Shown one piece after another: positions 32,799 to 34,205 of a stretch of DNA of 36,610 nucleotides. Within the stretch, counting starts at the first letter, position 1. Each line of letters begins with the position of its first letter. Below the pieces are notes generated by a model. The model saw only the letters and a program-made list of their open reading frames with translations. It was not told the origin of the DNA and ran no database searches. Origin of the DNA: Actinomycetota bacterium (GTDB lineage: Bacteria > Actinomycetota > Thermoleophilia > RBG-16-64-13); the NCBI GenBank assembly GCA_012514635.1, contig JAAYZX010000089.1:1-36610 (forward strand), written 5' to 3'. Position numbers and translations under genes: made by a program.

Positions 32799-33245
32799 TT
32801 AGAAACGAGGCTTGCGCAGCAGTTCTTCGACAGCCTCTTCACTATAGCCGAGAAGCCTCCCCAGCTCGCGTGCGATCTCGATCTCCTCGGCTAGACGCTG
32901 CTCGTCGACCAAGGCGGCTGCGGCGCTCTTGCGGGCTTTGAGCGCGTGGTACGAGTTCAGAACAGACCGGCCGGTTGCCATCAGAACTATCAGTCTACCG
33001 TGCGTGAACTCTGGGTTGAAGAGCAGGGTTTCGATGATCGTATCGTCGCCCTCTGCCGCAGTTCCATACTCCTCCGCGATCAAGAGAGCGGCTCGCAACA
33101 TCTCCACGTACTCATCCGGGTCCAGCGGAGGGCTAAAGGCCAGAGGTTTGCAACCGGAGGCAACCGCCTCGGTGAAGGCGTAGATCATGCCGAGCTTGAA
33201 CGCCCGGGTGTCCAACGGTTTAAGGTAATCGGGAGGAAACGCCAT
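32799..33245 (-). CDS. Conserved-looking protein of unknown function
   Basis: 148 aa, soluble and acidic, helical. AAGGGAG lies 6 nt before ATG 33245. It begins MAFPPDYLKPLDTRAFKLGM, has a central KPLAFSPPLDPDEYVEMLRA, and ends in a charged helical LARELGRLLGYSEEAVEELL-type segment (IEIARELGRLLGYSEEA). No cysteines are placed for metal binding, and no signal peptide or membrane helix appears. I do not recognise a named domain. It is convergent with the dehydratase-like gene and divergent from msrA, so shares no operon. Confidence 0.7.
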   Translation of the reverse strand: MAFPPDYLKPLDTRAFKLGMIYAFTEAVASGCKPLAFSPPLDPDEYVEMLRAALLIAEEYGTAAEGDDTIIETLLFNPEFTHGRLIVLMATGRSVLNSYHALKARKSAAAALVDEQRLAEEIEIARELGRLLGYSEEAVEELLRKPRF

Positions 33246-33380: not shown

Positions 33381-33407
33381 TCATGACGACCTCGGAGTGA
33401 TACTGAT

Positions 33408-34205
33408 ATGCATTCTCGACATCATCTGAAGACGACGGCCGTTGTGCTGACCGCTCTGGGTCTCGGCGCCGGCCTGACGCTTCCGGTGGCAGGATGCTCC
33501 TCTGCTGCGAAGACGGCGGCGCCGATCGGGGTCCAATCGTCCGAGCACACCACGGCAACACCGAGCATTCCGCCACTCGACGCCCGTGCTCCGGCCGTGT
33601 TTGAGACGGCGACCCTTGCCCTGGGCTGATTCTGGGGTCCCGACGCCCAGTTCGGGTGTCTCGACGGCATTATCAGGACGCGTGTAGGCTACGCCGGAGG
33701 GAGTACCAAGAACCCCACCTATCACAACCTGGCGGACCACACCGAGACCGTTCAGATCGACTACGATCCCAACGTCATCGGCTATGAAGAGTTGCTCTCC
33801 CTTTTCTTTGCAGCTCATAATTGTTTCCGAACTGCATTCTCACGCCAATACAAGTCCATCATCTTTGTTCACGACGCCGAGCAGGAGCGGACCGCGCGTG
33901 CGGCCAAGGCGGCGCTGCAGGCACGCACGGGGCGCACGGTGCAGACGGATATCGTGACCGCGTGGGAGTTCTACCGCGCTGAGAATTATCATCAGAAGTA
34001 CGCGCTGCAGGGGAAGAAGGCCATCCTGGAGGAGTTCCGGCGCATGTACCCGGACTTCGGGGGCATTGTCGATTCCACGGCCGCTGCGCGCGTGAACGGG
34101 TTTCTCTACGGCTGTGGTTCCCCGGATGAGGTGAGGAGGCTGAAGGACGATCTCGGTCTCTCATCCGAGGCCGTGGACCGGCTGATCCAGGTGCTGGGCG
34201 GATAA
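33408..34205 (+). CDS. msrA: Selenocysteine-containing peptide-methionine (S)-S-oxide reductase, lipoprotein
   Basis: The frame from ATG 33408 meets TGA at 33627-33629 and continues in the same frame, without another stop, to 34205. Translated through, it gives 265 aa. TGA sits exactly at the catalytic cysteine of MsrA: TLALG-U-FWGPDAQFG, normally GCFWG, so residue 74 is selenocysteine. After it come RTRVGYAGGSTKNPTYH, EFYRAENYHQKY and the rest of an intact MsrA. A hairpin fitting a bacterial SECIS lies 12 nt after TGA. The N-terminus is a lipoprotein signal (LPVAGC, Cys30), so the enzyme should repair oxidised methionine outside the membrane. Cys84, Cys139 and Cys236 are possible resolving residues. 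Conventional gene calling would split it into a 73-aa and a 137-aa ORF. Confidence 0.92.
33642..33660 (+). promoter_or_regulatory. Candidate bacterial SECIS hairpin of msrA
   Basis: GACGCCC (33642-33648) pairs with GGGTGTC (33654-33660), one G-U, around the loop AGUUC. The loop begins 19 nt after the UGA and has G at its second position, as SelB-binding bacterial SECIS require. GTC/GAC flanks could extend the stem. It lies within the coding sequence, as usual in bacteria. Confidence 0.7.

Follow-up and report, generated by a model that had tools for sequence, protein, structure and literature searches.

A predicted lipoprotein MsrA with selenocysteine at its catalytic position, and a candidate selenoprotein redox partner, in a genome of the Actinomycetota

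The locus raises the question of whether an in-frame TGA in a gene for methionine sulfoxide reductase A (MsrA), the beginning of which resembles a lipoprotein signal, is read as selenocysteine (Sec), whether the product would leave the cytoplasm and, if so, which reductant could recharge it there. The window, that is, the whole analyzed stretch of 36,610 nucleotides of contig JAAYZX010000089.1, belongs to one draft genome assembled into 129 contigs (98% complete), in which this gene was the only MsrA detected. If the reading given below is right, an MsrA branch acts outside the cytoplasm, without the glutathione/glutaredoxin system and where oxidants arrive first. This raises the questions of why bacteria spend selenium in that place and how oxidation of a Sec protein is avoided during its passage through the membrane.

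The reading frame of 265 codons starts with an ATG at position 33408, ends with the stop codon at 34203-34205, and contains exactly one in-frame TGA, at residue 74 in the motif ALG-U-FWG (Table 1). The sequence-only reading had placed a single TGA at the position of the catalytic Cys of MsrA with all later motifs in frame, and translation together with the domain matches confirmed this. With Cys at the TGA, the frame matched PF01625 with an E value of 2e-40 (residues 67-203); the match to TIGR00401 reached 118 bits, which exceeds the cut-off, and the frame is conserved in relatives. Upstream of msrA, a gene for a 148-aa product without a Pfam match is located on the minus strand (32799-33245).

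Table 1. Features of the msrA locus and of the SecTrx gene. Positions are those of the window unless another locus is given.
Feature	Position	Strand	Basis or remark
Shine-Dalgarno-like GGAG, 10 nt 5' of ATG	33394..33397	+	sequence
msrA coding sequence, 265 aa, one predicted Sec (U74)	33408..34205	+	domain matches; frame conserved in relatives
Predicted lipoprotein-type signal peptide, residues 1-29	33408..33494	+	hydrophobic core VVLTALGLGAGL following H/R/K-rich start
Lipobox Cys C30 (V-A-G-C), predicted lipidation/cleavage site	33495..33497	+	44-residue spacing to Sec
Linker, residues 31-66, mostly low predicted order	33498..33605	+	AlphaFold pLDDT block means <60, residues 1-60
MsrA catalytic domain, residues 67-202	33606..34013	+	PF01625 67-203; fold match 4lwj
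TGA, predicted selenocysteine U74, catalytic position	33627..33629	+	invariant column; TGA in 12 family genomes
bSECIS-type hairpin, 7 bp, loop AGUUC	33642..33660	+	comparative pairing test
Cys84, possible structural disulfide with Cys236	33657..33659	+	co-occurrence in L019, L020, L024
Cys139, near active-site QY; Pro in most relatives	33822..33824	+	alignment
Predicted C-terminal helical domain, CoMsrA type, residues 203-265	34014..34202	+	phmmer to CoMsrA 9-197; TM 0.91
Cys236	34113..34115	+	alignment
SecTrx, thioredoxin-like lipoprotein (predicted), in-frame TGA (WUGAC), between lgt and ccdA	L135:3934-4557 = G000:C117:30433-31056	-	

Sec insertion requires a machinery for which a search had been proposed with the sequence-only reading, and selA, selB, selC, and selD are all present in the genome, among them selB and selC, the absence of which had been named as the outcome speaking against Sec. 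The genes selA (521 bits) and selB (303 to 328 bits), which adjoin each other, and the tRNA-Sec gene selC (80 bits) form one cluster on contig C56, and selD was found with 393 bits. An ABC transporter ATPase gene sits between selB and selC (L017:1483-2289, minus strand), and selD is itself a selenoprotein gene with an in-frame TGA at the GSGUACK active site (L137:2271-3680, minus strand, contig C10 of the window's genome, G000). A global reassignment of TGA was rejected, since TGA terminates 15 of the 24 genes in the window.

An MsrA of this kind occurs in 12 of 18 genomes of the same family. The alignment to Cys- and Sec-containing MsrAs, likewise proposed before, placed the TGA in an invariant catalytic column, and the catalytic codon is TGA in all 12 family homologues. 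The tRNA-Sec was detected in 11 of these 12 genomes, the exception being the fragmented draft G006. A scan of public genomes added about 38 MsrAs of other lineages in which this codon is TGA (Chloroflexota, Bacillota, Thermodesulfobacteriota, Nitrospirota, Planctomycetota, and Verrucomicrobiota), along with relatives that have Cys in haloarchaea and other groups. A Halanaerobiales MsrB-MsrA fusion also carries a TGA at the catalytic codon of its MsrA part (L111, around 4001). With one draft genome of 129 contigs, the TGA might be suspected to stem from an error of sequencing or from a nonsense mutation that hit a Cys gene or a pseudogene, but the former was rejected because the TGA is kept in 12 family genomes, and the dozens of TGA homologues elsewhere, the complete Sec machinery, and the selection on the downstream hairpin leave either explanation with a negligible probability. 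SelB and tRNA-Sec would almost certainly decode UGA74 as Sec, with a hairpin 12 to 30 nt downstream. As judged by these comparisons, the gene almost certainly encodes a real selenoprotein MsrA of the Clostridium oremlandii type.

The hairpin GACGCCC-AGUUC-GGGUGUC, with the loop 19 nt past the UGA, agrees with a bacterial SECIS element (bSECIS) in its position after the UGA, a G within the first two loop bases, and a suitable spacing. The earlier claim of a hairpin at bSECIS spacing was weak as long as it was derived from the single sequence, because the stability showed no excess over shuffled sequences (z of -0.16) and was uninformative alone; the Rfam scan of the window yielded no matches. 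The comparison of homologues gave the claim its support. For eight stacked pairs examined in 50 TGA genes, pairing was formed in 70% of cases, compared to 50% (standard deviation, 1.8%) under a null model that swapped codons for synonyms at each gene's own GC3, resulting in a z of about 11, a value overstated because the null model treats the genes as independent. The signal may nevertheless be credited because the Cys genes, which are just as related among themselves, exhibited no pairing excess (n = 59 in two groups; 34% versus 35% and 28% versus 31%; z of -0.4 and -1.7). Moreover, GGG is used for the Gly that follows the loop (codon 9) by 43 of 50 TGA genes, compared to 4 of 31 haloarchaeal Cys genes. 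This indicates that a SECIS-type hairpin is under selection in the TGA genes only.

The best solved relatives of the protein are the entries of the C. oremlandii selenoprotein MsrA (CoMsrA), matched by phmmer with an E value of 1e-52 (query residues 67-255 on 9-197). An AlphaFold model based on 40 homologues had a mean pLDDT of 84.7, and nearly every residue from 61 to 265 exceeded 90. Foldseek with this model listed the CoMsrA entries first, with a TM score, normalized to the target length, of 0.91 across 201 columns (4lwj) and 43% identity, so the C-terminal helical domain of CoMsrA is predicted to be present. This domain is essential in CoMsrA (PMC4333827), which is devoid of a resolving Cys and is reduced by glutaredoxin instead of thioredoxin (PMC4479559). 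Both proteins share Sec in GUFWG, the helical domain, and apparently the absence of a conserved resolving Cys (Clostridium/Alkaliphilus oremlandii; PDB 4lwj, 4u66; PMC4333827, PMC4479559). They differ in that the glutaredoxin-reduced CoMsrA, with 209 aa, lacks both a signal peptide and Cys residues, whereas the MsrA of the window has a predicted lipoprotein signal, a linker, and three Cys residues after Sec. None of the three, Cys84, Cys139, and Cys236, is conserved, most Sec relatives have zero Cys there, and the homologue alignment contained no conserved resolving Cys. L019, L020, and L024 have both Cys84 and Cys236, a coincidence with a chance of about 5e-4 if the alignment rows are independent, and a disulfide bond between these two residues, connecting the two domains, is possible. 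By homology, Sec74 would attack methionine-S-sulfoxide, yielding selenenic acid and methionine, and the enzyme may repair oxidized surface proteins or free methionine sulfoxide.

Residues 1-30, MHSRHHLKTTAVVLTALGLGAGLTLPVAGC, contain a hydrophobic core followed by the lipobox P-V-A-G-C, with V-A-G-C at residues 27-30. The Pro at position -4 is unusual and presumably falls outside the strict PROSITE pattern. A lipobox-like Cys is positioned 44 residues before Sec in five family genes with diverged linkers (G000, G010, G015, G016, and G017), and the same spacing is found in a truncated second Sec-MsrA copy in G003. The window's genome possesses lspA and lgt, the latter matching PF01790 with 180 bits. 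The lipobox, the GGAG site, the fixed spacing in homologues, and the presence of lspA and lgt uphold the lipoprotein signal proposed in the sequence-only reading. The preprotein would very probably be exported, lipidated by Lgt at Cys30, and cut by LspA, which would produce a flexible tether of about 36 residues outside the membrane. The truncated copy in G003 (L198:1294-1650, plus strand) shares its contig with a Sec-MsrA that lacks a signal, and the gene beside it resembles the selC neighbor in G000 (L017:171-1262).

A real Sec-MsrA might nevertheless remain in the cytosol if translation started internally, for instance at the GTG of Val64, in which case the upstream frame encodes no signal peptide. 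Export of the sole detected MsrA would leave the cytosol with MsrB only, and this MsrB has no signal; close family members (L023, L026, and L028-L030) have short non-hydrophobic N termini, and the C. oremlandii enzyme has no such N-terminal extension. These points are countered by the GGAG 10 nt before the upstream ATG, the hydrophobic core with the lipobox, and the 44-residue spacing, which persisted in five genes despite diverged linkers and in the truncated sixth, so a cytosolic location is improbable. Decoding, export, and catalysis taken together, the reading as an exported lipoprotein Sec-MsrA of the CoMsrA type has a probability of roughly 0.8, with cell location and selenium content being predictions from the sequence.

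The combination of Sec and a lipoprotein signal had been regarded as unusual. It is indeed present here but not unique, since at least 15 Sec-MsrAs of several phyla are lipoprotein-like. Lipoboxes were assigned to 15 of 49 long-form Sec-MsrAs, and 14 more combined an upstream start with a hydrophobic N terminus; the simple rule used for this classification misjudges some proteins, for instance L061, which was called signal/anchor but has V-N-A-G-C. Sec-MsrAs with a lipobox or a signal-anchor N terminus recur in Chloroflexota, Bacillota, Thermodesulfobacteriota, Planctomycetota, and others. Since signal-less Sec-MsrAs occur within the same family too, export has probably been gained or lost more than once, as suggested by a quick tree of MsrA. 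That export goes with Sec is not claimed, because the Fisher p value of 4e-7 for all long-form MsrAs changed to 0.19 without the haloarchaeal Cys genes.

The location of a Sec protein outside the cytoplasm has precedents, because formate dehydrogenase N and NiFeSe hydrogenases are exported bacterial selenoproteins. Also already known are MsrAs with Sec, their helical domain, and a surface pathway from CcdA via thioredoxin to MsrA. A literature search, with most subscription journals outside its coverage, yielded no paper on a lipoprotein or exported Sec-MsrA, which is weak evidence for novelty. In the searchable text of recent reviews on prokaryotic selenoproteins, MsrA is listed, with signal peptides and lipoproteins unmentioned there.

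An exported MsrA needs an exported reductant, and CcdA was therefore sought in the genome. The one ccdA gene found is located on contig C117 in an operon-like cluster, lgt-SecTrx-ccdA, with all genes in the same orientation. The SecTrx gene, which overlaps the start of ccdA by 14 nt, is absent from the ordinary frame listing owing to its TGA, and the cluster was missing from the sequence-only reading, which covered the window alone. SecTrx is a redoxin/TlpA-like protein of 207 aa with the lipobox GTGAGC and the active site FWASW-U-GAC, in which the predicted Sec is residue 109. The nearest solved proteins by sequence are StoA, PDB entries 4hqs, 2yp6, 4evm, and 4hqz, which we take to be the pneumococcal Etrx1/2, and ResA. 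Like the ResA-like WAxxUGC selenoprotein family NF041054, SecTrx would have Sec in the active site, but membership in this family was rejected with 44 bits versus a cut-off of 300 bits. In 16 of the 18 family genomes, among them each of the 12 that have Sec-MsrA, the best match to SecTrx carries a TGA at the same codon, and ccdA or lgt adjoins the gene in most cases. The nucleotide sequence of the SecTrx hairpin, CUCGAUAG-GUU-CUAUCGAG, is near-invariant, with GAT and TAT in 16 of 16 genes, and its z against synonyms is 8.1, compared to -0.1 for Cys relatives. Given the conserved TGA, the lipobox, and the near-invariant hairpin, the prediction that SecTrx is another exported selenoprotein has support equal to that for MsrA.

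Because the MsrA has no conserved resolving Cys and a cytosolic glutaredoxin is unable to reach an exported enzyme, electrons from CcdA may pass via the WUGAC lipoprotein SecTrx to MsrA, a tentative step at somewhat below even odds. The whole selenium relay outside the cytoplasm, from CcdA to SecTrx to Sec-MsrA with both lipoproteins modified via the general Lgt/LspA route, is conceivable, with the odds leaning slightly further against it. Reduction of a selenoprotein MsrA by another selenoprotein reportedly occurs in C. oremlandii, where a Sec-glutaredoxin and a Sec-MsrA are said to represent a "tandem use of selenocysteine" (Mol Microbiol 2011, cited in PMC4479559); there the reductant is a glutaredoxin, while an exported TlpA/ResA-like lipoprotein is proposed here. 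The pneumococcal surface lipoproteins Etrx1 and Etrx2 are supplied with electrons by CcdA1 and CcdA2 and in turn reduce the membrane-anchored SpMsrAB2 (PMC3914529). The arrangement described here, deduced from the genes, resembles this pathway with a membrane-bound CcdA, a thioredoxin-like lipoprotein, and a surface MsrA, and ccdA and the gene for the thioredoxin-like lipoprotein are encoded together here and in relatives. In contrast, the pneumococcal thioredoxins and Msr work with Cys, and a transmembrane segment anchors MsrAB2, whereas here Sec is predicted in both the thioredoxin and the MsrA, and the MsrA is a predicted lipoprotein encoded on a contig apart from ccdA.

Alternatively, the Sec-MsrA may be recharged by a thioredoxin-like protein with Cys, by a low-molecular-weight thiol, or by Cys residues of the enzyme itself, and this has close to an even chance. 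The SecTrx gene is on a different contig from msrA, without genetic linkage, and SecTrx is not tied to an exported MsrA, being present in several family genomes with a signal-less Sec-MsrA or without a detected MsrA. Genomes of other phyla that encode an exported Sec-MsrA mostly have TlpA-like proteins with Cys instead of Sec; SecTrx as a general partner across phyla is not supported, since its best matches there are mostly Cys forms. Cys84, Cys139, and Cys236 could serve in an internal recharging but are not conserved, and the sole match to the SecTrx query in G000 was P0002 (E value up to 0.001), which speaks against this alternative. With a SecTrx lipoprotein alongside Sec-MsrA, the question of the reductant is directly testable, and both proteins make selenium chemistry outside the bacterial cytoplasm accessible to tests.

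In other phyla, no thioredoxin gene was found beside Sec-msrA, and the sole recurrent neighbor was msrB. The msrB gene is positioned just upstream of Sec-msrA at L028, L030, L049, and L050, and that of the window's genome is far from msrA (C79:802-1146).
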